Below, in pieces: positions 4,595 to 27,095 of a stretch of DNA of 33,097 nucleotides. A model generated the notes under the pieces. The model was not told where the DNA came from. It did not search any database and saw only the letters and a program-made list of their open reading frames with translations. The stretch spans positions 1 to 33,097 of the forward strand of contig CAMOUV010000003.1 in assembly GCA_946626695.1 (NCBI GenBank), in the 5' to 3' direction. Each line of letters begins with the position of its first letter. Positions within the stretch are counted from its first letter, which is position 1. The stretch is from an uncultured Blautia sp. (GTDB taxonomy: Bacteria > Bacillota > Clostridia > Lachnospirales > Lachnospiraceae). The position numbers were made by a program, and so were the translations under genes.

Positions 4595-6073
4595 ATGAAA
4601 AAAAGAATCGCAAGTGTTCTGGCAGCAATGCTGGCGGTATCCGCTCTGACCCCTGCAGCAACGGTATCTGCAGAGGAGGATACCTGGAAGATGGTCATGG
4701 AGGTCGTCAACTATGGCTTTGATGACCCGGATCTTCTGATGGTACAGGACGCAGTGAACGAGATCACCGTCCCGAAGATCGGCGTAGAGGTGGAATTCCT
4801 GACCGTCCCGATCATGGATCAGGCGACCAAGCAGGGCCTTCTGGTTGCCGCCGGGCAGCAGATCGACCTGGTGGTGGCCGGACTTCTGACCACTCCCTCC
4901 AATCTTGTATCCGCCGGCCTTCTTCAGCCGATCACGGAATATGTGGAAGGCTCGGAAGTACTTTCCAGTCTGGGCGAAGGGATCCTGGAGGCCTGCAGGG
5001 TCAAGGGAGAGATCTATGCTTACCCCGGCTCGATCGCCAGCGGAAACAGAGTTTCCTTCTTCTATGACAAAGACCTTGCGGAGGAATACAATCTCGAGAT
5101 GCCTGAGATGATCACTTCGGCCGAGGACTGGGAGGCTCTGTTTGAGGCGGTGAAGGAAAGCGGCATGCCGCAGTACGGAATTTCTCTCGGCGACGGCGTG
5201 GCCTGCGAATATGAATGGGCACCCTTTGATTCCCTTGGAGATGACGCCCTTCTTTCCTATGGCGTAGTCATGGATCCGAAAGAGGGCACCACGGTGGAAA
5301 ACTATTATGCCACCGAAGAATATATGCAGAAATGCAAGATGCACAGGGACTGGTTTGAAAAAGGATACTGCGTACCGGATTCCATCAGCAACGGATATAC
5401 CACCACGGACTCCATGAGCCAGGGTCTGATGCTCGGTTTTGTTTCCAACTCAAACCCGGGAAACAGCACCGCTTACAAGTCCAAGACCACCGGCAAAAAC
5501 CTCGGAGAGGTTCCGATGACCGATATTATCACCAAGACAAGCAACGTGCTGAATTTCTGCTGGGGCGTTTCCTCCTCCTGTGAGAGACCGGAGAAGGTCG
5601 TGGACTTCCTGGAGCTGATGTACTCCGATACCGAGCTTGCCAATCTGCTCAACTACGGAATCGAAGGCGTCCATTATACGACCACAGAGGGCAGCAAGAT
5701 CATCGGCTATCCGGAAGGCGTCGATGGCAGCAGCTGCGGGTACGGCTCCTTTGTAGGCACCTATGGAAATGTGAAAGAGATCTATCAGAGACCTCCGTTC
5801 ACCGATGAAGATATTGAAGGCTTCTCCGATTTCATTTATCCGAACGCAGAGACCTCCAAATTCCTGGGTTATTCCTTTGATCCGGAGAAAGTAAATACTG
5901 CTCTGACCGCTGTTTCCGCCGTGATCGGACAGTATGCTCCGGCTCTGGAATGCGGCATTGTGGATCCGGAGGAAAAAATTCCGGAATTCCTGGATGCCCT
6001 GGAAGCAGCCGGCATGAACGAAATCATCACGGAAAACCAGGCACAGCTGGATGCGTGGCTGGCTTCCAGATAA
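4595..6073 (+). CDS. Extracellular solute-binding protein, DUF3502 type, without lipobox
   Basis: A 492-residue substrate-binding protein of the ABC carbohydrate or glyco-oligomer class. The N-terminus is a signal peptide (KKR, hydrophobic stretch, likely cleavage after TVSA near residue 26). There is no Cys at the cleavage region, so unlike most Firmicute binding proteins it does not look lipid-anchored. The C-terminal 150 residues match the DUF3502 pattern (SKFLGYSFDPEKV, then GIVDPEEKIPEFLDALEAAGMNEII). The start was chosen at 4595, where AGGAG lies 9 bases upstream; the track start at 4493 lies inside uidA. It is probably co-transcribed with uidA and closed by the terminator at 6088. No permease or ATPase gene follows, so it must share a remote transporter, act as a secreted binding protein or sensor partner, or be an orphan. 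Confidence 0.85.
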   Translation: MKKRIASVLAAMLAVSALTPAATVSAEEDTWKMVMEVVNYGFDDPDLLMVQDAVNEITVPKIGVEVEFLTVPIMDQATKQGLLVAAGQQIDLVVAGLLTTPSNLVSAGLLQPITEYVEGSEVLSSLGEGILEACRVKGEIYAYPGSIASGNRVSFFYDKDLAEEYNLEMPEMITSAEDWEALFEAVKESGMPQYGISLGDGVACEYEWAPFDSLGDDALLSYGVVMDPKEGTTVENYYATEEYMQKCKMHRDWFEKGYCVPDSISNGYTTTDSMSQGLMLGFVSNSNPGNSTAYKSKTTGKNLGEVPMTDIITKTSNVLNFCWGVSSSCERPEKVVDFLELMYSDTELANLLNYGIEGVHYTTTEGSKIIGYPEGVDGSSCGYGSFVGTYGNVKEIYQRPPFTDEDIEGFSDFIYPNAETSKFLGYSFDPEKVNTALTAVSAVIGQYAPALECGIVDPEEKIPEFLDALEAAGMNEIITENQAQLDAWLASR

Positions 6074-8520: not shown

Positions 8521-8560
8521 AAGGTGAGGGATCATACAGCATCCCTCACCTTATTTTTTT
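8521..8560. terminator. Bidirectional terminator between convergent genes
   Basis: The stem AAGGTGAGGGAT and its exact complement encloses CATACAGC. On the plus side TTATTTTTTT follows the core; on the minus side AAAAG before the stem gives a U-rich tail. It serves both the 6300-8504 side and the AraC gene ending at 8560. Confidence 0.88.
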
Positions 8561-9942: not shown

Positions 9943-9972
9943 TTTACCTGACAAAGAGCGGCTTTCTATAAT
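9943..9972 (+). promoter_or_regulatory. Promoter of the GPH-led glycoside operon
   Basis: A perfect TATAAT -10 (9967-9972) lies 18 bases after a weak -35, TTTACC (9943-9948). Upstream is an AT-rich stretch with TAATTTTT twice (9912 and 9921, 9 bases apart), which could be an UP element or regulator half-sites. A weak -35 with a perfect -10 is typical of an activator-dependent promoter. Confidence 0.6.
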
Positions 9973-9991
9973 GGACGTAGTAAAAAACACC

Positions 9992-10010
9992 GATCCTGCA
10001 TGCAGGGATC
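9992..10010 (+). promoter_or_regulatory. Near-palindrome in the operon leader, candidate operator
   Basis: CTGCATGCAG is a perfect 10-base palindrome inside GATCC...GGGATC, nearly symmetrical apart from one extra base. It sits between the predicted transcription start (about 9979) and the AAAGGAG ribosome binding site, where a repressor would block transcription or a hairpin would mask translation. Confidence 0.45.
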
Positions 10011-10027
10011 ACAGAAAGGAGTCTGTT

Positions 10028-11545
10028 ATGGGAAAGGAAACAACCGCAATACATCCAAATGATGATGTACATTACCGCAAAGCAAAATTATGGCAGATCA
10101 TACTGGTTGCATTCAACGCATTTAACGGTATGGCTGTCTATTTCCTGATCGGACTGGCCAGCTATTCCGCCAGCATCGGTTACGGCATCGCCACCGTGGC
10201 CGTAGGCGGACTGCTCACATTCACCCGGATCTTCGATGCCGTCACGGATCCGCTTCTGGCCTTTGTCTATGACCGGTTCAATACGCCCTTCGGAAAAGTC
10301 CGGCCCCTCATGTTCCTTGGATGGCTGATCCAGAGCGTGGGCTTGCTGTGTATGTTCAATTTCTTTTCCAGCAAGGGAAACGGCGTGGTCACGTTCATTG
10401 CATTTTATCTGGTTTATGTGATCGGCTATACCATCGTGAACATGACGGCGCAGACGCTGCCGGCCCTGATGACCAATGATCCGAAGCAGCGTCCCACGGT
10501 CGGCGTATGGCAGACCGTGCTGAATTATCTGACTCCGATGGCTCTGAATATCGTGGTCTACACCCGCCTGATGCCAGCCTATGGAGGCAGCTTTAATCAG
10601 GAATTCCTGGATATCGTCACCTGGCTGTGTGTAACGATTTCTTTTATCGGCGTGGTACTGGTCTGCATTGGTATTTCGGAGTATGATAAGCCGGAGAATT
10701 TCAAGGGCATCGGAAAAACAGAGCGTCTGAAGCTGCGGGACATGGTGGATGTGTTCAAGAGCAACCGTCCTCTGCAGAGCTATATTCTGTCGGCGGCATC
10801 TGATAAAATCGCCCAGCAGGCTTCCTCCGCATCCATCGTGAGCACGATGCTGAACGGGATCCTGATCGGTGATATGGGACTGGCCACGACACTGAGCATG
10901 ATCGGCATGCTTCCTTCCATCTTGTTTGCTGCCTACGGAGCCCGTTATGCCGGAAAGCATGGCCATAAGGAATCCATCGTGACCTGGACACGCAACTGTA
11001 TCTTTGCCAATCTGGTGATCATTGCTTTCTTTCTGATTACAAGACACACAGTCGGAACGACGACCATTGCCCATATGGGCGTGACCATGATTCTGTTTGT
11101 CGGCCTGACCTTTGTCAGCAACGGCTTTGCCATGTGCGTGACGACGGCCAATACCGGTTTTATGGCGGATATCATCGATTATGAGCTGGATCGGAGCGGT
11201 AAATACATTCCGGCTGTCATCAGCGGAACCTACAGTCTGGTGGATAAGATCGTTTCATCCTTTTCGGCCGCCATTGCCACCGGCTGTGTGGCTCTGATCG
11301 GTTACACGGCGACCATGCCGCAGCCCGATGATCCGGCTACACCGGGCGTTTTCTGGATGACCATGTTCCTGCGGTACGGTCTGGCGATCCTGGGCTGGAT
11401 CTGTACGCTGGCTGCGATGCGCAGATGCGGCCTGTCGAAGGATGAGATGGTTCATGTGCAGAAGCGTATCGAGGATAAAAAGGCAGCCTCTCAGCAGGCT
11501 TTATTTAACGAAGAACTTCACAAGGGAGATGCGGATCATGCGTAA
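10028..11545 (+). CDS. GPH-family (glycoside-pentoside-hexuronide) MFS sugar symporter
   Basis: A 505-residue integral membrane transporter with about 12 hydrophobic segments. It carries the N-terminal GPH/MFS signature region (YGIATVAVGGLLTFTRIFDAVTDPLLAFVYDRF, followed by TPFGKVRPLMFLG) and a late DYELDRSGKYIPAVISGTYSLVDKI segment typical of GPH carriers, which import glycosides with a cation. The start at 10028 has AAAGGAG 6 bases upstream; the track start at 9971 lies inside the -10 region. It is the first gene of a tightly packed operon with five enzymes and overlaps the GH2 gene by 8 bases. As the only full transporter in the operon, it likely brings the intact glycoside to the cytoplasmic glycosidases. 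The substrate is unknown. Confidence 0.9.
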   Translation: MGKETTAIHPNDDVHYRKAKLWQIILVAFNAFNGMAVYFLIGLASYSASIGYGIATVAVGGLLTFTRIFDAVTDPLLAFVYDRFNTPFGKVRPLMFLGWLIQSVGLLCMFNFFSSKGNGVVTFIAFYLVYVIGYTIVNMTAQTLPALMTNDPKQRPTVGVWQTVLNYLTPMALNIVVYTRLMPAYGGSFNQEFLDIVTWLCVTISFIGVVLVCIGISEYDKPENFKGIGKTERLKLRDMVDVFKSNRPLQSYILSAASDKIAQQASSASIVSTMLNGILIGDMGLATTLSMIGMLPSILFAAYGARYAGKHGHKESIVTWTRNCIFANLVIIAFFLITRHTVGTTTIAHMGVTMILFVGLTFVSNGFAMCVTTANTGFMADIIDYELDRSGKYIPAVISGTYSLVDKIVSSFSAAIATGCVALIGYTATMPQPDDPATPGVFWMTMFLRYGLAILGWICTLAAMRRCGLSKDEMVHVQKRIEDKKAASQQALFNEELHKGDADHA

Positions 11546-13739
11546 AATACAGGTGTTGAAAAAGGGGTGGCGGTTCCTGAAAAACGCCTCCTCGGCAGAA
11601 AATGCGGCCGCGGCAGCAGATCAGGGAGTACCCGTTTCCCTACCGCATACCTGGAATGCGGAGGATGGGCAGGACGGAGGAAATGATTATCATCGCGGTC
11701 AGTGCTGGTATGTACGGGAACTGAGCGAAGAAGAGCTGGCTGGAGAGTGTGTCTTTCTGGAGATCAACGGAGCGGCGATGACCGCGGAGGTGTATCTGAA
11801 CGGGAGAAGGCTTGCCCGTCATGAAGGCGGCTATTCGGCCTTCCGCGTGGATCTGAGCGAGGTACGGGAAGAGAAGAATGTGCTGGTGCTTTCTGTCAGC
11901 AACGAGAGCAATGACCGGGTCTATCCGCAGAAAGCAGATTTTACCTTCTACGGTGGACTGTATCGGGAGGTGCGGCTGATCACCGTCCCGAAGGAGCATT
12001 TTGAAATGCTGCAGGATGGGACACCGGGCATCAAGGTGACGCCGAGAGTCGATCTTGCAAATCGTTCGGCGGTCGTGACGGTGGAAACCTGGCAGAACGC
12101 GGAAAACGTGGAAATCACGGTGAACGGACAGAGCAAGGCTGTCTCCTCCACAGACGGACACGCACAGGCTGAATTCTGTCTGAAAGATGTCCATCTGTGG
12201 GACGGTCTGGAAGATCCGTATCTGTATATTGCTTCGGCAAAGCTGCCGGGCGGCGATGAGATCAGCACCCGTTTTGGATGCCGGGTGTTCCGATGTGATC
12301 CGGAGAAGGGCTTCTTTCTCAATGGCCGCAGCTATCCGCTGCGGGGTGTCAGCCGGCATCAGGATCGGAAAGGGGCAGGAAATGCTCTTTGCCTTGAGGA
12401 TCACAAGGCGGATATGGAGATCATCAAGGAGCTGGGAGCCAACACTCTGCGGCTGGCTCACTATCAGCACGCACAGGAATTCTATGATCTGTGTGATGAG
12501 AACGGAATCGTTGTCTGGGCGGAAATCCCGTACATCACCATGCATATGAAAAACGGAAGAGACAATACCCTGTGTCAGATGCGGGAGCTGATCACACAGT
12601 GTTATAATCATCCTTGTATCGCTGTGTGGGGCCTTTCGAATGAGATCACGGCAGCCAGTGCCGTGGACGAAGATCTTCTTGAGAACCACCGGCTGCTGAA
12701 TGAACTGTGCCATCGCCTGGATCCGACAAGGCTGACCACCATGGCCAACGTGTTTATGCTTGAGACAGACAGCCCGATTCTGGAAATTCCGGATATCAAC
12801 AGTTACAATCTGTATTTCGGCTGGTATCTGGGCGAACTGGAACAGACGGATGAATTTTTTGATGAATACCATGCACGATATCCGGAACGTGTGATCGGGT
12901 TCTCGGAGTACGGCGCGGATGCAAATCCCTGCTTTCACTCTTCGTCTCCCGAAAAAGGTGATTATACAGAAGAATACCAGGCTTTGTATCATGAGCATAT
13001 GCTGCGGATGATCGAGGAGCGGCCCTATCTCTGGGCAACGCATGTGTGGAATCTTTTTGATTTCGCTGCCGACGGCAGAGACGAAGGGGGAAAGCACGGC
13101 GAGAACCAGAAAGGGCTGGTGAGCTTTGACCGGACTCTCAGAAAGGATGCTTTTTATCTGTACAAGGCAGCCTGGAATAAAAAGGAAGCCTTTGTCCACC
13201 TCTGCGGCAAGCGGTATATCAACCGTGCGGAAGCGGAAACGGAGATCAAGGTATACAGCAACCAGCCTTCTGTCACCCTGTATGTGGATGATGTCGAGCT
13301 TGCGGTTCAGACCGGCAGGACAGTTTTCACCTTCCGGATCCCGCTTCCGGGCGAGCATCTGATCCGGGTGGAAGCCGGGACGGCGTCGGACACCATGTGC
13401 ATCCGGAGGGTCAGCGAGCCGGATGATTCCTATGTGTTCAATAAGGCGGCCGCTTCTGTGATGAACTGGTTTGACGCGGAGGAAACAGATCCCTCCTGCT
13501 TCTCTATTCAGGATACGCTGGGTGACCTGAAGGCACATCCCGAAGCAGGCAGAGTCATTGAGCAGATGATGGCACAGGGCGCCGCATCCAGAGGAGAGGT
13601 GGCGGAATCCGTCAAGGATAATCCGGCTCTGCAGAGGATGATGAGCCGGATGACGCTGATCAGCCTTCTGAAGCAGGCCGGCGCGGATGAACAGAGCATG
13701 AAACAGATGAATCGTATTTTACAGGGGATCCGGAAATGA
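11538..13739 (+). CDS. Glycoside hydrolase family 2 (beta-galactosidase-like)
   Basis: A 733-residue GH2 enzyme. A jelly-roll sugar-binding domain comes first (VSLPHTWNAEDGQDGGNDYHRGQCWYVR), then an Ig-like domain, then the TIM barrel with acid/base Glu369 (VWGLSNEIT) and nucleophile Glu457 (GFSEYGAD). GENQKGLVSFDR contains an N-x-K motif, but this is also common in beta-galactosidases that read NDKGLV, so specificity stays open between galactoside and glucuronide. After the barrel come an Ig-like domain and a Gln/Met-rich helical tail of about 75 residues. There is no signal peptide. The ATG at 11538 overlaps the permease stop by 8 bases and has GGGAG upstream; the track start at 11442 lies deep in the permease gene. 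It overlaps the next gene by 4 bases (ATGA), implying translational coupling. Confidence 0.88.
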   Translation: MRKIQVLKKGWRFLKNASSAENAAAAADQGVPVSLPHTWNAEDGQDGGNDYHRGQCWYVRELSEEELAGECVFLEINGAAMTAEVYLNGRRLARHEGGYSAFRVDLSEVREEKNVLVLSVSNESNDRVYPQKADFTFYGGLYREVRLITVPKEHFEMLQDGTPGIKVTPRVDLANRSAVVTVETWQNAENVEITVNGQSKAVSSTDGHAQAEFCLKDVHLWDGLEDPYLYIASAKLPGGDEISTRFGCRVFRCDPEKGFFLNGRSYPLRGVSRHQDRKGAGNALCLEDHKADMEIIKELGANTLRLAHYQHAQEFYDLCDENGIVVWAEIPYITMHMKNGRDNTLCQMRELITQCYNHPCIAVWGLSNEITAASAVDEDLLENHRLLNELCHRLDPTRLTTMANVFMLETDSPILEIPDINSYNLYFGWYLGELEQTDEFFDEYHARYPERVIGFSEYGADANPCFHSSSPEKGDYTEEYQALYHEHMLRMIEERPYLWATHVWNLFDFAADGRDEGGKHGENQKGLVSFDRTLRKDAFYLYKAAWNKKEAFVHLCGKRYINRAEAETEIKVYSNQPSVTLYVDDVELAVQTGRTVFTFRIPLPGEHLIRVEAGTASDTMCIRRVSEPDDSYVFNKAAASVMNWFDAEETDPSCFSIQDTLGDLKAHPEAGRVIEQMMAQGAASRGEVAESVKDNPALQRMMSRMTLISLLKQAGADEQSMKQMNRILQGIRK

Positions 13740-14581
13740 CAAAAGCAGTGCAGCAGATCATGCTGGGAACGGTCACCGGGACCGAAGAGCAGGCCCGGAA
13801 AACATTGAAAAGGATAAAGGCGGCAGGATATGACGGGCTGGAACTGAACCGGTTCATGATTCATCCTTCCTCCCTGATGGTGCGGTTGATGACCCGTGCA
13901 GCCGGTATGCCAACAGGGAAGGGAGGAAACCTGGAGTGGAAGCGGCTTCTGACGGAGGCCGGGCTTTCGGTGATCAGCCTTCACACGGACCTGGGAAGTC
14001 TGGAGAGAGAGGCGGAGCAGGTCATCCGTGAAGCCGGAGAGTACGGGACGGACACGGTGGTGATCACGGGCATGTACCGTTTTGATTACGGAAATGAAAC
14101 AGAAATGCGCAGTCTGGCCGCAAGACTGAACAAGGCGGGAGAAAAACTGAACAAGGCCGGCATCTCTTTGCTGTATCACAACCATAACGTGGAGCTTCTG
14201 CTTGTCAGGCCCGGAGTACGTGCCTATGATGTGCTTCTGGATGAAACAGATCCTTCTCTGGTCTCATTTGAATTTGACAGCTATTGGTTCACGGATGGAG
14301 GAGCGGATGCAGGAGAGTGGATGCGGCGGCTTGGAAACCGCATGCATCTTTGGCATATCACGGATCGCGGATTCAGGCAGGCAGGAAAAGCCATGACGCC
14401 GATCCTGAAGGCGGACAGCATGGAGCTGGGTACAGGAAACATGAATCTGGATATACTGCGGGAGATCGCGTTGGAGAACGGAATCCGGGCAGTCGTGCTG
14501 GAAAGCCATAAAAACTGGATCGGGAAGGACCCGGTCAGGAGCCTGGAATACAGTGCAAAATGGCTGAAGGAGAGGTTTTGA
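13736..14581 (+). CDS. Sugar phosphate isomerase/epimerase-like TIM-barrel protein
   Basis: A 281-residue protein of the AP-endonuclease-2/xylose-isomerase-like TIM barrel class (IolE/IolI relatives), normally metal-dependent and acting on keto sugars or inositol derivatives. Visible pieces: DGLELNRF near the start, LLYHNHNVELL (metal Glu region), FDSYWFTDGGAD (Asp), LWHITDRG (His), then ELGTGNMNLDIL and VVLESHKN (Glu). Usual members read HxKD and ExD at the last two sites; here they are HITD and ESHK, so the pocket differs. It starts at the ATGA overlap with the GH2 gene. Inside a glycosidase operon it may process a released or oxidised sugar. It shares its superfamily with the catalytic subunit of C-glycoside deglycosidases, but the small DUF6379 partner is absent nearby. 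Confidence 0.82.
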   Translation: MTKAVQQIMLGTVTGTEEQARKTLKRIKAAGYDGLELNRFMIHPSSLMVRLMTRAAGMPTGKGGNLEWKRLLTEAGLSVISLHTDLGSLEREAEQVIREAGEYGTDTVVITGMYRFDYGNETEMRSLAARLNKAGEKLNKAGISLLYHNHNVELLLVRPGVRAYDVLLDETDPSLVSFEFDSYWFTDGGADAGEWMRRLGNRMHLWHITDRGFRQAGKAMTPILKADSMELGTGNMNLDILREIALENGIRAVVLESHKNWIGKDPVRSLEYSAKWLKERF

Positions 14582-14583
14582 GT

Positions 14584-17115
14584 ATGAAAGCAGTACATTT
14601 ACAGACAGAGCATATGGATAATCCGTTGGGACTGGGAATCCCGGCTCCGATCCTGAGCTTTCATACGGATGGCGGACGACCCGCCGCGTATCAGATCATC
14701 GCCTGTTCAGGAGATGCAGCTGTATGGGACAGCGGGCGGGTGGAGAGCGCTGATATGGTGGTGCGCTGCGGATATCAGGCAAAGCCCGGAGAAAGGATCA
14801 CCTGGCGTGTCCGGCTGTGGGATCAGGAGGGCAAAGCAGGGGAGTGGAGCGAGGCCTGGTATGAGCGGGGACTGGCGCAAGACGGCTGGAAGGCGCAATG
14901 GATCGAACCGGGAGAAGAGAAGACCGAAGGAAAGAGACAGCCTGCCAGCTGTCTGATGCGCAGATTTTTCCTGGAGAATACAGGAGATGCCCGTCTGTAT
15001 ATCACCTGTCACGGGGTCTATGAGGCCTGTGTAAACGGAATCCGGGCAGGCAGCTTTGTCCTGGCTCCCGGAACCGATGACTATCATAAACGTCTGCAGT
15101 ATCAGACCTATGATGTTACCCCGATGCTTCGAAAAGGGGAAAACGAACTGCTGGTGATGCTGGGTGACGGCTGGTTCCGGGGAAATATCGGGATAGACGG
15201 TCTGAACAACTACTATGGCACGGATCTGGCACTTTTGTGTCAGCTGGAAGTGGGCGGAAGAACGGTCCTGATCAGCGATACTTCCTGGCAGGCCAGTCAG
15301 CAGGGACCGGTTCGCGAGAATGATCTGCAGCTGGGCGAGTGTTATGATGCCCGTCTGGAGGAAATCCGGGAGTGGCACGGAGTGAAGGAGGCTTCCTTCG
15401 GCTATGAAAATCTGGTCTGCTCCGACAGCGTGCCGGTGGAGGAACAGGAACGGTTTCCCGGAAAGCGATTCTGCACACCGAATGGCGAAACGGTCATCGA
15501 TTTCGGCCAGAATCTGGCCGGTTATACCGAAATCCGTCTTCAGGCAAAAGCGGGACAGAAGATTACACTGTGGCACGGGGAAACCCTGGATGAGAACGGG
15601 AACTTTACCCAGTCCAATTTTGATCCAGGCGAACGGAACAAGAACGGCGGTGTATCGCAGAAAATCGAATATATCTGCAAAAAGGGTCTGAATATCTATA
15701 AGCCGCATTTTACTCTTTTTGGTTTCCGGTATGCCCGGGTGGTCTCGGACGCGGATCTTACAGATGCAGAATTCACCGCCGTAGCAGTCTATTCGCGGAT
15801 GCCCCGGACAGGCTTCTTTACGTGCGGCAGAGAGGATGTCAACCGGCTGTTTCTGAACAGTCTGTGGAGCATGAGATCCAATTTCTGTGATATTCCTACC
15901 GACTGCCCGACCAGGGAGCGAGCCGGCTGGACAGGGGATGCAGGTGTATTTGCACCGACCGGCGTGATGCTGACGGAGTGCTACCCGATCTTACGGAAAT
16001 GGCTGGCGGAATGCCGCCTTGCCCAGGGGGAGGACGGGCGTGTGGAAAATATTGCGCCGGTGAACAACACCGGCACAATGATCTCTCAGATGCTGCAGGG
16101 CTCCTGCGGTTGGGGAGATGCCTGTATTCTGGTGCCCTGGGCCCTGTATCAGGCGTACAGGGACAAAACGATCCTGGAAGAGAATTATGAGATGATGACC
16201 CGGTGGCTTGATTTTGTGAAAAACCGTGCCCTGGAGACCCGGCCTCAAAATGAGGGAAATCCGTGGAAGGAATATCTGGTGGATCAGGGGTTCCACTTTG
16301 GGGAATGGATGGAGCCCGATGTATCTGGTATGGAGTCCATGAAAAAAACGATGGCCTTTGGGGCTCCGGAGGTTGCCACCGCGTATTATTATCGCTCGGC
16401 CAGTCTGGTTTCCGTCATAGCCGGTCTTCTCGGCAAAGACAAGGACGCCGGAAAATATGCCGACATGGCCGAAAATGTCAGAAAGGCGTACCGATATACC
16501 TGTACCCGGAACGGAAGGATCTCATCGGACCGCCAATGTGAATATGTACGGCCCATCGCCTTCGGGCTGCTGGATCCGGAGGAGGTCCGGGAGGCTGCCG
16601 ACGCCTTGGCTGAACAGATCCGCAAGAACGGGGATCATTTGAACACGGGATTTCTTTCCACTCCGGATCTGTGCCGTGTCCTTGCGGATCATGGCCATGC
16701 AGACACGGCCTACCGTCTTCTGCTGCAGGAGGAATGCCCGGGATGGCTGTATGCCGTCAGAAAGGGAGCGACCAGCATCTGGGAAACCTGGGACGGGATC
16801 CGCGAGGATGGGACCGTTCATGATTCCCTCAACCATTATTCCTACGGAGCAGTCAGCGGGTGGCTTCTGGATGGTGTCAGCGGTATCCGGCTGTCTGCAG
16901 AAGAACTGGTTATTGCGCCAAGGCCGGACCGCAGGCTTGGATTTGCCAGGGGACTTTTTTTGTCCCCGGTTGGGGAGATCCGGAGTGAATGGCGGTACGA
17001 AGGAGAGAAGCTGCAGCTGAATATTTCGGTTCCTGTTCCGGCACGGATCTGTCTGCCGGACGGCCGGACCATACAGGTGGAAGAAGGAGAGTATCAGTAT
17101 GAAATATCTGTGTAA
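14584..17115 (+). CDS. Alpha-L-rhamnosidase, glycoside hydrolase family 78
   Basis: An 843-residue inverting glycosidase releasing terminal alpha-L-rhamnose, as found on plant flavonoid glycosides and pectin side chains. Beta-sandwich domains come first (APILSFHTDG...YQIIACSG; RLYITCHGVYEACVNG; LAPGTDDYHKRLQYQTYDVT; GDGWFRGNIG), then the (alpha/alpha)6 barrel, then a C-terminal beta domain. The probable general acid is Glu445 in DCPTRERAGWTGD (canonically RDERxGWxGD), and Glu734 in SIWETWDG fits the base position. There is no signal peptide. AAGGAG is 11 bases upstream of the ATG at 14584, which is 2 bases after the previous stop; the track start at 14560 would overlap the isomerase gene. It overlaps the GH43 gene by 17 bases. 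Confidence 0.93.
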   Translation: MKAVHLQTEHMDNPLGLGIPAPILSFHTDGGRPAAYQIIACSGDAAVWDSGRVESADMVVRCGYQAKPGERITWRVRLWDQEGKAGEWSEAWYERGLAQDGWKAQWIEPGEEKTEGKRQPASCLMRRFFLENTGDARLYITCHGVYEACVNGIRAGSFVLAPGTDDYHKRLQYQTYDVTPMLRKGENELLVMLGDGWFRGNIGIDGLNNYYGTDLALLCQLEVGGRTVLISDTSWQASQQGPVRENDLQLGECYDARLEEIREWHGVKEASFGYENLVCSDSVPVEEQERFPGKRFCTPNGETVIDFGQNLAGYTEIRLQAKAGQKITLWHGETLDENGNFTQSNFDPGERNKNGGVSQKIEYICKKGLNIYKPHFTLFGFRYARVVSDADLTDAEFTAVAVYSRMPRTGFFTCGREDVNRLFLNSLWSMRSNFCDIPTDCPTRERAGWTGDAGVFAPTGVMLTECYPILRKWLAECRLAQGEDGRVENIAPVNNTGTMISQMLQGSCGWGDACILVPWALYQAYRDKTILEENYEMMTRWLDFVKNRALETRPQNEGNPWKEYLVDQGFHFGEWMEPDVSGMESMKKTMAFGAPEVATAYYYRSASLVSVIAGLLGKDKDAGKYADMAENVRKAYRYTCTRNGRISSDRQCEYVRPIAFGLLDPEEVREAADALAEQIRKNGDHLNTGFLSTPDLCRVLADHGHADTAYRLLLQEECPGWLYAVRKGATSIWETWDGIREDGTVHDSLNHYSYGAVSGWLLDGVSGIRLSAEELVIAPRPDRRLGFARGLFLSPVGEIRSEWRYEGEKLQLNISVPVPARICLPDGRTIQVEEGEYQYEISV

Positions 17116-18910
17116 TCCTGTCAACATCAACTATCGGTATCAGTTCAACGCGGATCCCCGCAGGCATGGAGAGCTTCAGATCTGCCGGGAAGCGGCGGAT
17201 CCCTCCATGATCTGCTTTGAAGGGCGGTATTATATTTTTGCTTCCATGACACTGGGAGTCTGGGTATCGGATGATCTGGTCCGCTGGGAAAACCACCGGC
17301 TGCCCGCGGAGCTTCCCCTCTACGACTATGCACCGGACGTCCGTGTGAAGGATGGCTGGGTCTGGCTCTGTGCTTCAAGCCGGGATCGGAACTGTGCCCG
17401 TTACCGTACCCGGGATATCCTGAATGGTCCCTATGAAGAGTGTGAAGGAAGCTTTCCCTTCTGGGATCCCAATCTTTTTGTGGATGATGACGGGCGTGTG
17501 TATTTTTACTGGGGCTGTTCCAATCAGACACCGATCTGGGGGATCGAGCTGGATCCGGATACCATGCAGCCGCTGGGGGAAAGAAAAGAGCTGATCGAAG
17601 GGCATCCCAACAGAATCGGGTTTGAGAGGGTCGGGGAGGACAATTCGGTTCTTCCCGCCAGTGAAGAAGAGATAGAAGCGAGATACCAGGCTTTTATACA
17701 TAGGCAGGGGGTGCCGGAAAGCCAGCTCCCTGAGGATGTGAAACCCCTGATCCGCGGAATGCTGACCGATAAGCCTTATATCGAAGGGGCATGGATGGAC
17801 AAGCATGACGGCGTCTATTATCTGCAGTATGCCTGCCCGGGCACCCAATATAATACGTATTCGGACGGGGTTTATATCGGCAATCATCCCCTGGGGCCTT
17901 TTACGCTGGCCCCGAATAATCCGTATTCCTACAAGCCGGGTGGTTTTCTGCCAGGCGCAGGCCATGGCTCCACCATGCAGGATCTGCAGGGAAACTGGTG
18001 GCATACCTCCACCATGCGTGTCAGTGTAAACCATGATTTTGAACGCAGGGTCGGAATCTGGCCGGCCGGCTTTGACGCTGACGGAGATCTTTTCTGCAAT
18101 CAGAGGTACGGGGACTGGCCCATCAGCGTATCTGGTCTTCAGGAGGATCCATGGCGGGATCCGGCCTGGATGCTTCTGAGTGTCGGCAAGAAGGCGGAGG
18201 CCTCATCCTGCACGGAAGGTCATGAGCCCTGGAGGGCAGCAGAAGAAAATGTACAGACCTGGTGGCAGGCAGCTTCTGCGGAGAAAAACGAGTGGCTGAT
18301 GCTGGATCTGGGAAAATGCTTCGACATACACGCTGTGCAGATCAATTTTGCAGATGACCGGATCGATATATCCTGTCCCGGAGAAATCCGGCCGGGATCT
18401 CAGGCAAGATATATAGAAGAGAGAGAACTGGTGACCCGATGGAGGCTTGAGGCTTCGGCGGATGGAGAAAGCTGGTTCGTTGTGGAGGACAAAACAAAGG
18501 CTGACACGGATCTTGCCCATGATCTTGTCGTGAGGGAAGAAGGCTTTGGCGCCCGCTTCCTGCGGATCGGGAGCATGGAGGTCCCCTATGGACAAAAGCC
18601 CTGCATTTCCGGGCTCCGGGTGTTCGGACTGGGAGAGGGACAAAAACCGGCTGTGCCGGAATTCTCGGCAGAACGGGCAGGAGATCTGGACATGAGGGTC
18701 CGGATCCGGGAACAGGAAGATACACTGGGTTATACGATCCTGTTCGGATCAGATCCCCAAAAGCTGTATCACAGCTGTATGGTGTTTGCAGCCGGAGAAA
18801 AGAGGATCGGAGCGTTGATCAAAGGCAGGAAATACTGGGTCCGTGTGGATGCGTTTAATGAAAACGGCATCACGGAGGGCGCCTGTATTGTGCTGGAAAG
18901 AGAGGAATGA
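17099..18910 (+). CDS. GH43-type glycosidase with discoidin and FN3-like domains
   Basis: A 603-residue enzyme with a five-bladed propeller like beta-xylosidases and alpha-L-arabinofuranosidases. The expected catalytic triad is visible: Asp34 (AADPSMI, base), Asp123 (FWDPNLFVDDDG, pKa modulator) and Glu229 (YIEGAWM, acid). HGSTMQDLQGNWWHTS is the usual late blade motif. Residues about 355-505 form an F5/8 type C (discoidin) sugar-binding domain (NEWLMLDLGKCFDIHAVQINF; RFLRIGSMEVPYGQ), and 515-603 are FN3-like. There is no signal peptide, so it acts in the cytoplasm, unusual for a binding-module enzyme but consistent with its neighbours. AAGGAG lies 9 bases upstream of the start, inside the rhamnosidase gene. 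The linkage cut cannot be told from sequence; an arabinoside or xyloside is the family default. Confidence 0.85.
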   Translation: MKYLCNPVNINYRYQFNADPRRHGELQICREAADPSMICFEGRYYIFASMTLGVWVSDDLVRWENHRLPAELPLYDYAPDVRVKDGWVWLCASSRDRNCARYRTRDILNGPYEECEGSFPFWDPNLFVDDDGRVYFYWGCSNQTPIWGIELDPDTMQPLGERKELIEGHPNRIGFERVGEDNSVLPASEEEIEARYQAFIHRQGVPESQLPEDVKPLIRGMLTDKPYIEGAWMDKHDGVYYLQYACPGTQYNTYSDGVYIGNHPLGPFTLAPNNPYSYKPGGFLPGAGHGSTMQDLQGNWWHTSTMRVSVNHDFERRVGIWPAGFDADGDLFCNQRYGDWPISVSGLQEDPWRDPAWMLLSVGKKAEASSCTEGHEPWRAAEENVQTWWQAASAEKNEWLMLDLGKCFDIHAVQINFADDRIDISCPGEIRPGSQARYIEERELVTRWRLEASADGESWFVVEDKTKADTDLAHDLVVREEGFGARFLRIGSMEVPYGQKPCISGLRVFGLGEGQKPAVPEFSAERAGDLDMRVRIREQEDTLGYTILFGSDPQKLYHSCMVFAAGEKRIGALIKGRKYWVRVDAFNENGITEGACIVLEREE

Positions 18911-18911
18911 G

Positions 18912-20195
18912 ATGAAATTCCCGGAAGGATTTCTGATCGGTGCGGCTACGGCGGCTCATCAGGTGGAAGGAAACAACAGGAACAGCGATTACTGGGCCCA
19001 GGAGCAGATGCCGCATTCCAGTTTTGCGGAGAAAAGCGGACAGGCCTGTGATCATTATCATCGGTATGAAGAAGATATCCGGCTGATTGCGAAAGCCGGC
19101 CTGAATGCCTATCGTTTTTCGGTGGAATGGGCACGGATCGAGCCGGAGGAAGGCTGCTTTGATGAAGCAGAGACAGAGCATTATCGGAGTGTTATCCGGT
19201 GCTGCAGGGAGAACCATGTGGAACCGGTGGTAACACTGATGCATTTTACCAGTCCGGTCTGGCTGATCAGAAAGGGCGGCTGGGAAGCGGAGAGCACCAT
19301 CGGTTATTTCAGAAGATACGCCTCTTATGTGGCAGAAAAGCTGGGAAACGAAATACAGTACATCTGTACGATCAATGAGGCCAATATGGGGCTGCAGCTG
19401 GCGGCGATCGAGAGAAGGTTCCGGCTCATGGCAATGCAGGCGCAGAGCCAGGCATCCAAAGCAGAAGGGACCGTTCAGGTGGGAATGAATTTCCAGAAGA
19501 TGATGGAAAACATGAAGTATGCCGCCATGGAGAATGCGGAGTTTTTCGGTACTCCCGAGCCCCGGATCTTTGTCTCTTCCCGTACGCCGGAGGGAGATGC
19601 TCTGGTGATGCGGGCTCATCAGGCAGCGAAGGAGGCAATCAAGGCGGTTCATCCCGAAATCAAGGTTGGCATTACGCTGTCTCTTCATGATGTGCAGGCC
19701 GTGCCTGGCGGAGAAGAACGGGCGGCTGAAGCCTGGAAGGAAGAGTTCAGTCATTATCTGCCGTTTATCCGGGATGACGATTTCCTTGGAGTTCAGAACT
19801 ACACCCGGATGCAGTATGGGGCTGAGGGACAGCTTCCTTGCCCGGCCGGTGCGGAGCTGACCCAGATGGAGTACGAGTTTTATCCCGAAGCGTTGGAGCA
19901 TGTGATCCGGAAGGTTCATGCAGAGTTCAAGGGGGATCTGATTGTCACCGAAAACGGCGTCGCCACCTCCGATGACAGCCGGCGTGTTGCGTTTATTACG
20001 CGTGCGCTGCAGGGCGTACAGAGCTGCATGGCAGACGGGATTCCCGTCAAAGGGTACTGTTACTGGAGCCTGATGGACAACTTTGAGTGGCAGAAGGGAT
20101 ATGCCATGACTTTCGGACTGGTCGCCGTGGACAGAGAAACCATGGAGAGAACACCGAAGGACAGTCTTTTCCTCCTGGGAGAGATGCGGGGCTGA
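18912..20195 (+). CDS. Glycoside hydrolase family 1 beta-glucosidase, NEA variant
   Basis: A 427-residue cytoplasmic TIM-barrel retaining glycosidase. The N-terminal signature is FPEGFLIGAATAAHQVEG. The acid/base is Glu156, but the motif reads TINEA instead of the near-universal T-x-N-E-P. The nucleophile is Glu347 in VTENG. The aglycone/sugar signature SLMDNFEWQKGYAMTFGLVAVD is intact. It is a little shorter than typical GH1 (440-480). The ATG at 18912 directly follows the GH43 stop; the track start at 18843 lies inside GH43. It is the last gene of the GPH operon, ending 6 bases from the stop of the convergent AraC gene with no terminator between them. Substrate: a beta-glucoside or 6-phospho-glucoside; with a non-PTS permease upstream, the unphosphorylated form is likelier. 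Confidence 0.9.
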   Translation: MKFPEGFLIGAATAAHQVEGNNRNSDYWAQEQMPHSSFAEKSGQACDHYHRYEEDIRLIAKAGLNAYRFSVEWARIEPEEGCFDEAETEHYRSVIRCCRENHVEPVVTLMHFTSPVWLIRKGGWEAESTIGYFRRYASYVAEKLGNEIQYICTINEANMGLQLAAIERRFRLMAMQAQSQASKAEGTVQVGMNFQKMMENMKYAAMENAEFFGTPEPRIFVSSRTPEGDALVMRAHQAAKEAIKAVHPEIKVGITLSLHDVQAVPGGEERAAEAWKEEFSHYLPFIRDDDFLGVQNYTRMQYGAEGQLPCPAGAELTQMEYEFYPEALEHVIRKVHAEFKGDLIVTENGVATSDDSRRVAFITRALQGVQSCMADGIPVKGYCYWSLMDNFEWQKGYAMTFGLVAVDRETMERTPKDSLFLLGEMRG

Positions 20196-20201
20196 ACCCC
20201 T

Positions 20202-21047
20202 TCATGAAAGGCGTATGGCCGCGGCAGTCTTACGGTACTGGTTCGGTGTGGAGCCGGTGATCCGTTTGAACTGCAGGCCGAAATAGCTGGGCGATTCGTA
20301 TCCGCAGGCCCGGCCGATCTCGGCGGCATCCCGTTCCGGAAAGCGCTCCAGCATCATCCGGGCCCGGCCGATCCGCAGACGCTGCAGATACTGGATGATG
20401 GTGAGGCCGGTTTCTTTCTTGAAAACCGTACAGAGATATTCACTGTTGAGCCCCAGGCGGTCGGCCAGATCGGTGACCGAAACCGGCTCGGAAAGATGAG
20501 ATTCCAGATATTGGATGACCCGGAAGGCGTAAGAGTCTTCCGGGATTTCTTTTTGTACGGAGATATCCTTCTCTGTCTGCCAGGTGATGGAATGCGAGAA
20601 TTCCAGCAGGAACTGATAACAGGCGGCGGACCAGTCTGCCTGGCGGGAGGATTTTTGCGTCATGGTATTGAGCAGGGCGATATGACGGACGAAAAGATCC
20701 GGATCCGTCAGCGTAAAGACGCCGCTTTCCCGGATGCCCAGACATTCGAACAGAGCCGCACAGACTGGCCCCGTAAAGCCGGCGGAGGAGACGATCCATT
20801 CTTTCCCGAGACCGTGGTAACTGCAGGGCGTCTCCGGCAGCAGGACAAAACATTCCCCTTCCCTTATTTTCATGGACTCACCGGAGAGGATAAGCTCTCC
20901 GTCCCCGGACCGGGCAAGAAAACAGGAATAATGAGGGTTCCCATAGGGACGGTTTACCGGTTCCTGGCGATAGTCCTCGGCGAGATGGGAGAGCAGAAGA
21001 GGAACCTGGGTAAAATCGGAGGATTCGGTCTGAAAAAAACGGATCAT
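20202..21047 (-). CDS. AraC family transcriptional regulator
   Basis: 281 residues: an N-terminal AraC_binding/cupin-like domain (NPHYSCFLARSGDGELILSGESMKIREGECFVLLPETPCSYHG) and a C-terminal double HTH (VSVTDLADRLGLNSEYLCTVFKKETGLTIIQYL, then DAAEIGRACGYESPSYFGLQFKRITGSTPNQYRK). AAAGGA lies about 11 bases before the ATG. It diverges from the second GH1 gene (21235), and the 187-base gap carries exact direct repeats at helical spacing, so it probably activates that operon. Its 3' end faces the GPH operon, so read-through there would produce antisense RNA to this gene. Confidence 0.88.
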   Translation of the reverse strand: MIRFFQTESSDFTQVPLLLSHLAEDYRQEPVNRPYGNPHYSCFLARSGDGELILSGESMKIREGECFVLLPETPCSYHGLGKEWIVSSAGFTGPVCAALFECLGIRESGVFTLTDPDLFVRHIALLNTMTQKSSRQADWSAACYQFLLEFSHSITWQTEKDISVQKEIPEDSYAFRVIQYLESHLSEPVSVTDLADRLGLNSEYLCTVFKKETGLTIIQYLQRLRIGRARMMLERFPERDAAEIGRACGYESPSYFGLQFKRITGSTPNQYRKTAAAIRLS

Positions 21048-21234: not shown

Positions 21235-22587
21235 ATGAAGATCCAGTTTCCGGACAATTTTACATGGGGTGTAGCGACAGCCGCCGCGCAGATCGAAGGA
21301 GGCGCTTTTGAGGACAACCGTGGAGCTTCCATCTGGGATGTGTTCTCCCGTCTGCCGGGAAAGATCAAGAACGGAGGAATCCCGGAGGTAGCCTGTGATT
21401 CCTATCACCGGGTTGAGCGGGATGTGGAAATGATGAAGGAGCTGGGGGTCAATTCCTACCGTTTCTCCTTCTCCTGGTCCAGGATCCTGCCGGACGGAAC
21501 GGGGCAGGTCAATGAGAAGGGCATCGCCTATTACAAAAAGCTGATCCGCCTGCTGAAGGAAAACGGAATCCGTCCCAATGCCACGATCTACCACTGGGAT
21601 CTGCCCTATGCCCTGCAGATGAAGGGCGGGTTCGGAAACCGGGAGATCATCGGCTGGTATCTGGAATATGTCAACGTCCTTCTGGACAATTTTGGAGAGG
21701 ATATTGATCTGTGGGTTACCTTTAACGAGCCTATTGCAACGTATGTTGGCTACGCCCAGGGCTTCTTTGCTCCGGGGCTTACGGATGAGAAATACGCCCG
21801 TCAGGCTCTGCATCATCTGCTGCTCTGCCATGGGGAGGCCGTGAAGCTGTTCCGGAAGAGAAACATTCCCGATGCAAAGATCGGGATCGTGGTGGATGTC
21901 TGGAAGCATTATCCCGCCCGGGAAGGCAATCCGGAGGATGAAGCTCTTGCACTGACCGGCAACGAGATCAAGGGCTATGGCATGTTCCTGCATCCGCTGT
22001 TTCTTGGCGGATATTCGGATGTGCTGATGAAATATTTCGAGGAAAACGGTCTGACTCCGGTGATGCAGGAGGGAGACTTTGAGACAATCTGCCAGCCGGT
22101 GGACTTCTATGGCCTGAATTTCTACAACGGTCTCTACGACAATGCGGACAAGCTCCGGGAAGCCGAGAAGGTCAAAAAAGAAGGCGGGAATTATCAGGAC
22201 CGTCCGGAGGACCATACGGAAGCGATCCGGGATGTGCTCCATATGCTGGTGGAGAAATACAGGATCCAGGTCCCAATCTATATTTCGGAGAACGGATTCC
22301 CCTTTGATGACGCGGATGGAAAAGAGGCGAATCTCAACGATCGTAAGCGGATCGAAGTGATCCGGAAGGTTCTGACCTGGCTGCACAAGGCCATGGAGGA
22401 TGGAATCGATGTGCGCGGCTACTATCTCTGGTCTCTGATGGACAATTTTGAATGGTCCGCGGGCTACGCCGCCAGATACGGCCTGTACTACACAGACTAC
22501 GAGACCCTGGAGCGGATCCCGAAGAAGAGCGCCGGATGGTATGCAGAGGTGACGCGGACGAACAGCGTGGAAACATGGGAAGACTGA
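21235..22587 (+). CDS. Glycoside hydrolase family 1 beta-glucosidase
   Basis: A 450-residue retaining beta-glycosidase with all GH1 hallmarks: FPDNFTWGVATAAAQIEGG at the N-terminus, acid/base Glu165 in TFNEP, nucleophile Glu352 in ISENG, and SLMDNFEWSAGYAARYGLYYTDY near the end. There is no signal peptide. AGGAGG is 8 bases upstream of the start. It heads an operon with a VOC protein, a rhamnosidase remnant and a Gfo/Idh/MocA oxidoreductase. It differs clearly from the GH1 at 18912 (shorter protein, NEA motif), so the two are not a recent duplication. It probably cleaves beta-glucosides of plant aglycones. Confidence 0.92.
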   Translation: MKIQFPDNFTWGVATAAAQIEGGAFEDNRGASIWDVFSRLPGKIKNGGIPEVACDSYHRVERDVEMMKELGVNSYRFSFSWSRILPDGTGQVNEKGIAYYKKLIRLLKENGIRPNATIYHWDLPYALQMKGGFGNREIIGWYLEYVNVLLDNFGEDIDLWVTFNEPIATYVGYAQGFFAPGLTDEKYARQALHHLLLCHGEAVKLFRKRNIPDAKIGIVVDVWKHYPAREGNPEDEALALTGNEIKGYGMFLHPLFLGGYSDVLMKYFEENGLTPVMQEGDFETICQPVDFYGLNFYNGLYDNADKLREAEKVKKEGGNYQDRPEDHTEAIRDVLHMLVEKYRIQVPIYISENGFPFDDADGKEANLNDRKRIEVIRKVLTWLHKAMEDGIDVRGYYLWSLMDNFEWSAGYAARYGLYYTDYETLERIPKKSAGWYAEVTRTNSVETWED

Positions 22588-22674
22588 GCACAGCTGTCCG
22601 GAGCGGAGTGTGAACGACATGCAAAAAGTCATGAGGAGAGTTATGGCAGTATTCTGCCTTAGGAGGAGGAAACC

Positions 22675-23211
22675 ATGATTGTACAGCCGAATGCACATGT
22701 AGGAATTGTTTGTAAGGATCTGGAGAAGAGCATTGCGTTTTATGAGAAGTTCCTTGGCCTGAAGGAGAAATTCACCTTATATTACGGGGACATGATCCCC
22801 AAGGATCCGGTCTGGCTGGCCAAGGTGCCCCAGGAGCGGATCGACTATCTGAAAACGGTCGAAAACGTGAAATGGATCGTCTATATGGAGTGGACGGAAG
22901 GCCCAAAGGGATACTTTATCGAGCTCTTCAATGAGCTGGACGCCCATATCGAGAACCTGCCCAGCAAGGAGAAATACGGCCTGAATCACATCGATATCGT
23001 CGTGGACGATATACAGGCCTTTTATCAGGAGCTGCTGGACAAGGGAGCGAAAGATTATATCTTCATTCAGCCAGGCTCCTCCATCTGCCGCAGCTATACC
23101 ATGTGGCTCCGGGATCCCGACGGAAACGAAATCGAAGTGCATCAGTATACGGATATTTCCATGCAGGTGATCGGCCGGGAGCTTCCGGAGGGAGTTACCT
23201 GGACGCCGTAA
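22675..23211 (+). CDS. VOC (glyoxalase/bleomycin resistance) family metalloprotein
   Basis: A 178-residue protein with paired beta-alpha-beta-beta-beta modules of the vicinal oxygen chelate fold. The four positions that hold a divalent metal are occupied: His8 (NAHVGIV), Glu83 (YFIELF), His105 (LNHIDIVV) and Glu154 (GNEIEVHQY). Members include glyoxalase I, methylmalonyl-CoA epimerase and ring-cleaving dioxygenases. An oxygen-using reaction is unlikely in a gut anaerobe, so isomerisation, epimerisation or a lyase step is favoured. AGGAGGAGG lies just before the start. The gap from GH1 is 87 bases and contains a 15-codon ORF ending in an ATGA overlap with this gene. Its substrate is unknown; the setting suggests a sugar or aglycone intermediate. 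Confidence 0.85.
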   Translation: MIVQPNAHVGIVCKDLEKSIAFYEKFLGLKEKFTLYYGDMIPKDPVWLAKVPQERIDYLKTVENVKWIVYMEWTEGPKGYFIELFNELDAHIENLPSKEKYGLNHIDIVVDDIQAFYQELLDKGAKDYIFIQPGSSICRSYTMWLRDPDGNEIEVHQYTDISMQVIGRELPEGVTWTP

Positions 23212-23262
23212 GCCTGGTTGATCCGGCACAAAACGGACGTTGGAACAGAAGGAGAGAAACGC

Positions 23263-23709
23263 ATGGCAAAGGTAACAGATGTATTTCCGGTCAGGAGTTC
23301 TGTTTATCAGGAGGAAAGGGCAAGGCTGAGCCTGCTTCCGGAAAGGATCCTGCAGGTTCGCGGCAAGGTGACGGGGGCAGAACAACTGCTCCTTGACAGC
23401 CCCGAGCAGGCTTATCTGGAAGGCGGAGATTTCGGGGCTTTCTGCTATGAAAAATTCCGTCACAGCCTGTGTCACGGCTGGTCAAGCGGTCCGGTGCCCT
23501 TCATTTTGCGTCATATTATGGGAATCACCATTGCGGAGCCAGGCTGCAGGACGCTGCGGATCACACCGCATCTGGGAGGCCTGAAGCGGGCATCGGCAGC
23601 CTATCCTACGCCTCTGGGCGTTGTGTCCGTACGACACAGGGTCATGGAGGATGGAAAGATCCTGACGGAATACGATGCTCCGGAGGGGATAAAAGTCATA
23701 GTGGATTAA
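23263..23709 (+). pseudogene. GH78 alpha-L-rhamnosidase remnant with internal deletion
   Basis: A 148-codon ORF with a good ribosome binding site (AAGGAG, 8 bases before the ATG). The first 60 residues (RLSLLPERILQVRGKVTGAEQLLLDSPEQAYLEGGD) resemble the extreme N-terminus of clostridial GH78-type proteins. From about residue 66 onward (HSLCHGWSSGPVPFILRHIMGITIAEPGCRTLRITPHLGGLKRAS) it matches the C-terminal beta domain of the same family. The whole catalytic (alpha/alpha)6 barrel, normally 400 or more residues, is missing, with the reading frame kept; the join is near 23440-23465. It therefore cannot be a hydrolase. It could be a dead remnant or a reused sugar-binding fold. The family call rests on pattern recognition. 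Confidence 0.65.
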
Positions 23710-23728
23710 AATAAACGGAGGGATAAGC

Positions 23729-24832
23729 ATGAGTAAGAGTACAGTCTGCGTCGGCGTTGTGGGAGCCGGTGCGATCAGTGATATTTATTTTGAGAATATG
23801 ATCCATCGTTTTGACAATCTGCGGGTGAAGACGGTCTGCGCCGGTCATCTGGAATCGGCACAGCGGAAGGCAGAGCAGTATGGGATCTGCGCAGCCACCT
23901 TGGAGGAAATGCTGGAAGATCCGGAGATCGAGCTGGTGGTGAATCTGACGCCGGCCCATGCCCACTACGGGATCATCAAGGCAGCTCTGGAGCATGGAAA
24001 GCATATATATACCGAGAAAACACTGACGGACGACCTGCAGAAATCGAAGGAACTGGTGAGCCTCGCAGAAGAGAAGGGACTGTATCTGGGCAGCGCACCG
24101 GAAACTTTTCTGGGTGGAGCTCTTCAATACGCCGCAAAGGTCATAAAAGAGGGTCTGATCGGGGAGATCAATTCCTTTTCCATCTCGGCCAACCGGAACA
24201 ATGACATGCTCCTGGATGCCTATGCCTATATGCGGCAGCCGGGCGGGGGCATTGTCTGTGACTACGGCGTGTACTATGCCACAGCGCTGGTGACGCTGCT
24301 GGGATCTGTAAAGAGAGTAGGCAGCATCGTCCGTACGCCCTATCCGACCCATGTCAATACCATGCCCGGCAATCCTCTGAACGGGCAGGTCATGGAAACG
24401 CCTAACGAGAGCGAGGTCAGCGCCGTTGTACAGATGGCGAACGGGATCACGGGAACCTTCCACATCAATGCGGATTCGATTTTCGCGGATCAGGCCTTTT
24501 TCTATATCTACGGGACAAAAGGGATCCTGATCCTGCCGGATCCGAATCAGTTTGCCGGGCCGGTGCGTTTGCTCCCGCAGCCGGAGGAGTTCTGGAAGCA
24601 TACAGACCCGGTCACACTGTGGGAGTCGGAGGAGGGTGAGGTCAATCTCCGTGGGATCGGCCCCTCCGAGATGGCAGAAACGATCCTGCATGGCACTCCC
24701 TACAGACCGACAGCCCGGCTGGCCTGCCATGTCCATGAGGTTTTGACGGCGATGTTATCCGGAGGTGAGGATGGTGCATTTATCGATGTATTTTCAGAGG
24801 CGGACCTGCCCGATGAATATGTCCGGTCATAA
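23729..24832 (+). CDS. Gfo/Idh/MocA family NAD(P)-dependent oxidoreductase
   Basis: A 367-residue sugar or cyclitol dehydrogenase-like protein. The N-terminal Rossmann fold has VGVVGAGAISD. The catalytic Lys is Lys97 in YTEKTLTDD, where most members read EKP. The C-terminal sheet has GGGIVCDYGVYY: Asp178 is kept and the usual His is Tyr182, as in the glucose-fructose oxidoreductase branch. GGAGGG precedes the start. It follows the rhamnosidase remnant by 19 bases and ends the GH1 operon; its tail overlaps the MATE remnant. Possible role: oxidation of a sugar at C3 or handling of an oxidised sugar released by the glycosidases. Relatives oxidise flavonoid C-glycosides (DgpA type), but specificity cannot be assigned. 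Confidence 0.85.
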   Translation: MSKSTVCVGVVGAGAISDIYFENMIHRFDNLRVKTVCAGHLESAQRKAEQYGICAATLEEMLEDPEIELVVNLTPAHAHYGIIKAALEHGKHIYTEKTLTDDLQKSKELVSLAEEKGLYLGSAPETFLGGALQYAAKVIKEGLIGEINSFSISANRNNDMLLDAYAYMRQPGGGIVCDYGVYYATALVTLLGSVKRVGSIVRTPYPTHVNTMPGNPLNGQVMETPNESEVSAVVQMANGITGTFHINADSIFADQAFFYIYGTKGILILPDPNQFAGPVRLLPQPEEFWKHTDPVTLWESEEGEVNLRGIGPSEMAETILHGTPYRPTARLACHVHEVLTAMLSGGEDGAFIDVFSEADLPDEYVRS

Positions 24833-25509: not shown

Positions 25510-25514
25510 AAGGG

Positions 25515-25546
25515 AACAGGCAGCCGGGATTCCGGCTGCCTGTTTT
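25515..25546 (+). terminator. Intrinsic terminator of the former opp operon
   Basis: AACAGGCAGCCGG and its exact complement enclose the loop GATT, and the stem ends in a short T-run (TTTT) followed by GACA. The esterase start codon is only 28 bases further. No complete promoter fits in between, although TTGACA lies at 25545-25550, so esterase transcription probably depends on read-through from upstream. Confidence 0.8.
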
Positions 25547-25574
25547 GACAACGGAGTGCTACAGGAGGAGAAAA

Positions 25575-27068: not shown

Positions 27069-27095
27069 TCGGCAATGCCCGGAAAGGAACGAACG

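Follow-up and report, generated by a model that had tools for sequence, protein, structure and literature searches.

Gene Content and Layout of the Locus

Six genes lie one behind the other in the window (the whole stretch of DNA that was analysed, 33,097 nucleotides), which is an entire contig (C3) of a 2.25 Mb draft genome of an uncultured Blautia sp., 94% complete and in 227 contigs. According to the ORF calls, all six are open on the plus strand; they encode a GPH-type permease, a GH2 enzyme, a PF01261 TIM-barrel protein and GH78, GH43 and GH1 glycoside hydrolases (Table 1), and these family assignments were upheld by Pfam and NCBIfam. The junctions range from -17 to +2 bases: the permease and GH2 genes overlap by 8 bases, the GH2 and PF01261 genes by 4, and the GH78 and GH43 genes by 17, while gaps of 2 bases and 1 base separate PF01261 from GH78 and GH43 from GH1, respectively. 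Thus, the compact run of six genes joined by overlaps or gaps of at most 2 bases, as described in the initial annotation, is borne out by the ORFs and their junctions. Its extent also stands, except that an AraC-family gene divergent from the permease gene had been omitted and is assigned to the unit on the basis of its conservation (see below), with a predicted regulatory role. A bidirectional terminator-like hairpin flanks this gene, and a second, convergent AraC gene downstream closes the unit. A candidate promoter precedes the permease gene; since the first ATG of the latter sits within the promoter-like -10 box, translation probably starts at the second position given in Table 1. Hydrophobic N-terminal segments are absent from all five enzymes (maximum 12-residue Kyte-Doolittle values of 0.5-1.7 versus 2.3 for an exported-type solute-binding protein encoded in the window), in agreement with the earlier statement that they are devoid of signal peptides.

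Table 1. Features of the operon and of its surroundings in the window.
Feature	Position	Strand	Evidence or remark
Second beta-glucuronidase, uidA-like	2725..4563	+	NCBIfam PRK10150, 750.8 bits (cut-off 544)
Extracellular solute-binding protein gene	about 4595..6073
OYE-type FMN/FAD oxidoreductase, 648 aa	6300..8246	+	directly upstream
Terminator-like hairpin, bidirectional	8521..8552
AraC-family regulator, 417 aa	8560..9813	-	PF12833/PF00165 at C-terminus; divergent from operon
Candidate operon promoter, TTTACC-N18-TATAAT	9943..9972	+	consensus scan 10/12; consensus match only
GPH-type sugar:cation symporter	9971..11545, probable start ATG 10028	+	PF13347, 2.3e-36
GH2 beta-glucuronidase, FMN-binding class (predicted), Rh3GUS ortholog	11538..13739	+	7kgz_A, 1072 bits over 1-732
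PF01261 TIM barrel, 3-keto-glycoside 1,2-lyase-like, predicted metal-dependent beta-eliminase	13736..14581	+	profile and Foldseek matches, conserved active site
GH78 alpha-L-rhamnosidase	14584..17115	+	five rhamnosidase domains; 3w5m, 439 bits
GH43 with C-terminal F5/8 type C domain (Ara/Xyl/Gal candidates)	17099..18910	+	PF04616, 2.8e-28
GH1 beta-glycosidase, BGL167/SGR_2426 group	18912..20195	+	4r27, 398 bits
AraC gene, downstream	20202..21047		convergent
Downstream block	21235..27533	+	not conserved with operon
ORF, 163 aa, probable gene remnant	23218..23709	+	GH78 C-terminal domain only
Gfo/Idh/MocA oxidoreductase	23729..24832		not conserved with operon

The Gene Set Is Conserved and Co-Occurs in Gut Clostridia

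A search of genome contigs with a profile of the PF01261 protein retrieved 443 encoding stretches, of which the best 80 were kept. Among these best 80 of 443, synteny was counted in the 46 loci of more than 15 kb; the PF01261 gene is present in 100% of them by construction, since the loci were chosen by it. The permease gene was found in 45 of the 46, the AraC gene in 44, GH78 in 43, the beta-glucuronidase (GUS) and GH43 genes in 40 each and GH1 in 31, the usual order being AraC divergent from permease-GUS-lyase-GH78-GH43-GH1. The check proposed with the initial annotation, a search for the same gene order in other genomes, was thus positive: the set recurs, mostly in the same order, and more distant genomes of the same family retain the set with the order shuffled. 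Among the best 80 of 443 stretches, loci from ruminant and rabbit gut Clostridia predominate, and GUS, GH43 or GH1 is missing from some, which we count against our main reading. The uidA-like GUS, the solute-binding protein, the OYE-type oxidoreductase, the second GH1, the glyoxalase-family protein, the Gfo/Idh/MocA oxidoreductase and the esterase encoded nearby were rejected as members of the unit, each occurring in at most one of the 46 long loci (best 80 of 443).

Independent searches for GH1, GH43, GUS and the permease were run on a set of 200 same-family genomes, 199 of them besides the window's own. In these 199 genomes, pairwise co-occurrence gave Fisher p-values from 2e-19 (lyase-like gene and GH1) to 9e-14 (GH43 and GUS), values somewhat inflated by kinship between genomes, although each of them carries a different genus number. 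In one genome (G139; loci L045 and L142-L144), GUS, GH1, GH43 and the lyase-like gene are all present and spread over four contigs. The lyase-like gene of this genome lies apart from the remaining operon genes. The permease gene was close by in seven of eight GUS loci reached without using the PF01261 gene. Another genome from this genus yielded no GUS at the threshold used, so the operon looks accessory there. As judged from the recurrence of the same set in dozens of genomes and from its co-occurrence across the 199 genomes, the six genes constitute a real operon-like unit and not a chance arrangement.

The GH2 Enzyme Belongs to the FMN-Class Beta-Glucuronidases

The GH2 protein matches PDB entry 7KGZ over its full length with 65% identity. 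This entry shows Rh3 GUS from Roseburia hominis with FMN bound, an enzyme in which F406 and Y430 matter to triclosan-glucuronide processing (PMC8748916). GH2 domains are present in the operon protein, and catalytic E369 and E457, N523 and K525 of the NxK motif, F406 and Y430 are invariant in 66 homologs. The catalytic residues, the NxK motif, F406, Y430 and the C-terminal domain are all shared with Rh3 GUS. We therefore assign the operon GH2 to the FMN-class beta-glucuronidases, FMN binding being predicted from orthology to Rh3GUS; a beta-galactosidase is ruled out by the same orthology and the NxK motif. The E. coli uid (gus) operon likewise pairs a beta-glucuronidase with a GPH-family transporter, but its GUS is of a different class, and it lacks the rhamnosidase, GH43, GH1 and lyase genes. 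Rh3GUS has been examined by itself with the glucuronides of triclosan and other compounds, and it cleaved triclosan glucuronide efficiently in vitro (PMC8748916), whereas its counterpart here sits in a conserved, putative plant-glycoside operon. FMN-binding GUS enzymes have also been tied to mycophenolate reactivation (PMC9377255); in the available parts of PMC9377255 and PMC8748916 no discussion of their natural substrates was found.

Permease and Accessory Hydrolases

The permease resembles the GPH, MelB and UidB models at scores under their cut-offs (for TIGR00792 gph, 106 bits against 231). The match to PF13347 is clear, and we classify the protein from these profiles as a divergent GPH-like transporter. 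In the GH78 enzyme the domain set is complete and both catalytic glutamates are invariant among homologs. Catalytic D34, D123 and E229 of the GH43 enzyme, for which only weak PDB relatives were found, are invariant in 60 homologs. Catalytic E156 and E347 of the GH1 enzyme are conserved, as are M159 and Y321 of the +1 subsite. Among solved structures, its nearest relatives are BGL167 (4r27), active on the sugars of ginsenoside Rb1, and SGR_2426, an enzyme with a preference for beta-1,2-linked glucooligosaccharides such as sophorose (PMC12369401). In our own alignment, M159 pairs with Met171 of SGR_2426 and Y321 with Trp291, so that both enzymes have a methionine and an aromatic side chain at the +1 subsite; the second position is occupied by Tyr in the operon GH1, by Trp in SGR_2426 and by Glu in BGL167.

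The PF01261 Protein Resembles 3-Keto-Glycoside Lyases

Profile comparisons matched the PF01261 protein to the 3-keto-beta-glucopyranoside 1,2-lyases AL1 and BT1 (8tcs/8tcd/8tct; 2e-20 to 9e-20) and to AtOGE (5e-15). Among the best Foldseek matches of its AlphaFold model (pLDDT 83) were 3obe, 8tcd, 8tct and 8bvk, all ranking above tagatose 3-epimerases. The Mn2+ ligands of AtOGE are His132, Asp163, His189 and Glu233, the base is His134, and a second metal position is formed by Glu39, His66 and Glu161 (PMC10628242). Their equivalents, drawn from motif spacing and profile alignment, are H148, D181, H207, E256, H150, E36, H83 and E179, and they are kept in 94-95 of 95 homologs. The PF01261 protein has in common with AL1 and BT1 (8tcd, 8tct) and AtOGE (8bvk) the fold, the YHNH motif and a metal site with ExD, His and Glu. 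It differs from them in its low identity (ca. 20%), a longer N-terminal insert, hydrolase partners and the lack of an oxidoreductase in the operon. Neither a Gfo/Idh/MocA protein nor a flavoenzyme was found as an oxidoreductase partner for the lyase in the gene set conserved across the 46 long loci (best 80 of 443); the Gfo/Idh/MocA gene of the window is outside that set. Inosose dehydratase was rejected as an assignment, the IolE model scoring 38.9 bits, far under its cut-off of 290.

The label of the initial annotation, "isomerase-like", would fit a conventional isomerase or epimerase that passes on one of the liberated sugars, e.g., in place of RhaA, and such a function agrees with the isomerases and epimerases found in this fold family and with the absence of a RhaA match from the genome. 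We nevertheless consider it rather unlikely, since the nearest relatives by both profile and fold are 3-keto-glycoside 1,2-lyases, with epimerases lower, the HxH motif at strand 5 agrees with AtOGE, and the IolE-type dehydratases are more distant relatives with weaker matches. Probably, then, the protein is a beta-eliminase for a 3-keto sugar or glycoside and not an isomerase. Of the other labels, permease, GH78, GH43 and GH1 stood, and "GH2" could be narrowed to a beta-glucuronidase.

A Proposed Pathway of Glycoside Catabolism

What is read from the sequence, namely which genes are present, how tightly they are spaced, the preserved catalytic residues, and the conservation and co-occurrence of the set, makes it fairly probable that this is a conserved AraC-regulated operon of gut Clostridia for catabolism of a small soluble plant glycoside with alpha-L-rhamnose, beta-D-glucuronate, beta-glucose or beta-galactose and a pentose. 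This estimate refers to the general pathway and does not extend to a saponin as the substrate. We infer import, the order of trimming, regulation and the part played by the lyase as follows. The GPH-type cation symporter would bring the glycoside in intact. In the cytoplasm, GH78 would strip rhamnose, GH43 a pentose (or galactose) and GH1, whose relatives cut 1,2-links, beta-linked glucose or galactose. The FMN-class GUS would take glucuronate off the aglycone or core, and the freed glucuronate would enter the route of UxaC, which is encoded in the genome. The PF01261 protein would act on a 3-keto sugar or glycoside by beta-elimination, with an oxidoreductase encoded elsewhere. Counted against this pathway are the lack of any match to the RhaA family in the 94% complete genome and the lack, in the conserved set, of an oxidoreductase that would supply the 3-keto substrate. 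Five GH78 places occur in the same genome despite the absent RhaA match.

The initial annotation had envisaged import of a rhamnosylated glycoside followed by trimming inside the cell. The cytoplasmic pathway is supported by conservation, co-occurrence, the GPH-type permease and the absence of signal peptides; the list of sugars has to be revised to include glucuronate as a core sugar. A more specific version, in which a mixed hydrolytic and eliminative route is followed, is offered as a speculation that we would not favour at present: the lyase, almost always retained together with the permease, would break one linkage of a glucuronate- and rhamnose-bearing plant glycoside that is beyond the hydrolases, with the oxidoreductase encoded elsewhere, and the FMN-class GUS would finish deglycosylation. 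If so, the FMN-binding GUS enzymes of drug metabolism would be plant-saponin enzymes.

Candidate Substrates

The predicted activities call for glucuronate (GUS) and rhamnose (GH78), together with glucose or galactose (GH1) and arabinose, xylose or galactose (GH43). Because the operon GH2 is an FMN-class GUS, glucuronate would be a core sugar, and a small soluble glycoside is favoured since the unit is devoid of secreted depolymerases. Soyasaponin I has the sugar chain Rha-Gal-GlcA. It counts against a saponin that such molecules are bulky, whereas GPH symporters usually carry small sugars. Alfalfa saponins, e.g., 3-O-GlcA, 28-O-[Xyl-Rha-Ara] medicagenic acid, bear GlcA, Rha, Ara and Xyl (PMC8172297). 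The fit of these sugars and the origin of the homologous loci, mainly from forage eaters, favour a triterpenoid saponin, which is our leading guess, albeit one with well under an even chance of being right. A literature search for a saponin operon or a GUS-rhamnosidase operon found nothing relevant.

The main rival substrate is an arabinogalactan or gum oligosaccharide (e.g., Rha-alpha-1,4-GlcA-beta-1,6-Gal with Ara side groups), trimmed in the cytoplasm by the same four hydrolases. Arabinogalactan side chains contain Rha, GlcA, Gal and Ara, one sugar per hydrolase, so that the sugar content fits nearly as well as that of a saponin; GPH symporters carry small oligosaccharides, and both arabinosidases and galactanases occur within GH43. 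However, the conserved set includes neither an extracellular depolymerase nor a beta-galactosidase of the GH35/GH42 type, and the relatives of the GH1 enzyme cleave beta-1,2-glucosides and saponin glucosides, which makes such a substrate a doubtful one in our view. Least probable is a flavonoid glycoside that contains glucuronate, rhamnose or both, or else a variety of glycosides accepted with little selectivity: flavonoid rutinosides and glucosides are frequent targets of GH78 and GH1 enzymes and an OYE-type reductase is encoded upstream, but that gene is absent from the conserved set, common rutinosides lack glucuronate and a role for GH43 is not obvious. Rutin, hesperidin and naringin, proposed with the initial annotation, are poor primary candidates for a GUS-containing operon, since all three are devoid of glucuronate.

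Intracellular glycoside-utilisation operons are already known; what the plant-glycoside operon proposed here would add is a natural context for FMN-class GUS. Known mainly for drug reactivation, these enzymes would gain a testable dietary role, and drug reactivation would be tied to plant diet. The operon would also offer a gene marker for degraders of glucuronate-containing glycosides, possibly saponins, in the gut of livestock and humans. The gut microbiome converts soyasaponins to soyasapogenols (PMC12901295); in the literature searched, no paper naming the genes responsible was found.

Neighbouring Genes and a Recurrent Protein

In the window, the uidA-like GUS gene is followed by the solute-binding protein gene. 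Close relatives of the OYE-type oxidoreductase are found near loci L105 (92%) and L073 (61%). The downstream block codes for a second GH1, a glyoxalase-family protein, the Gfo/Idh/MocA oxidoreductase, a carboxylesterase and a 152-aa protein without a family match. The small ORF in this region matches only the C-terminal domain of GH78 rhamnosidases.

Eleven loci (L091:10171-11802, L123:11011-12585, L049:10907-12481 and eight more) carry, in the vicinity of the lyase-like gene, a gene for a protein of about 525 aa, protein X. No Pfam or PDB sequence match was found for it, and no counterpart in the genome studied here. It is strand-rich and perhaps a beta-propeller; the pLDDT of its model is 58, and fold matches were not trusted. 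In several rabbit loci, protein X is present where GUS, GH43 and GH1 are absent.
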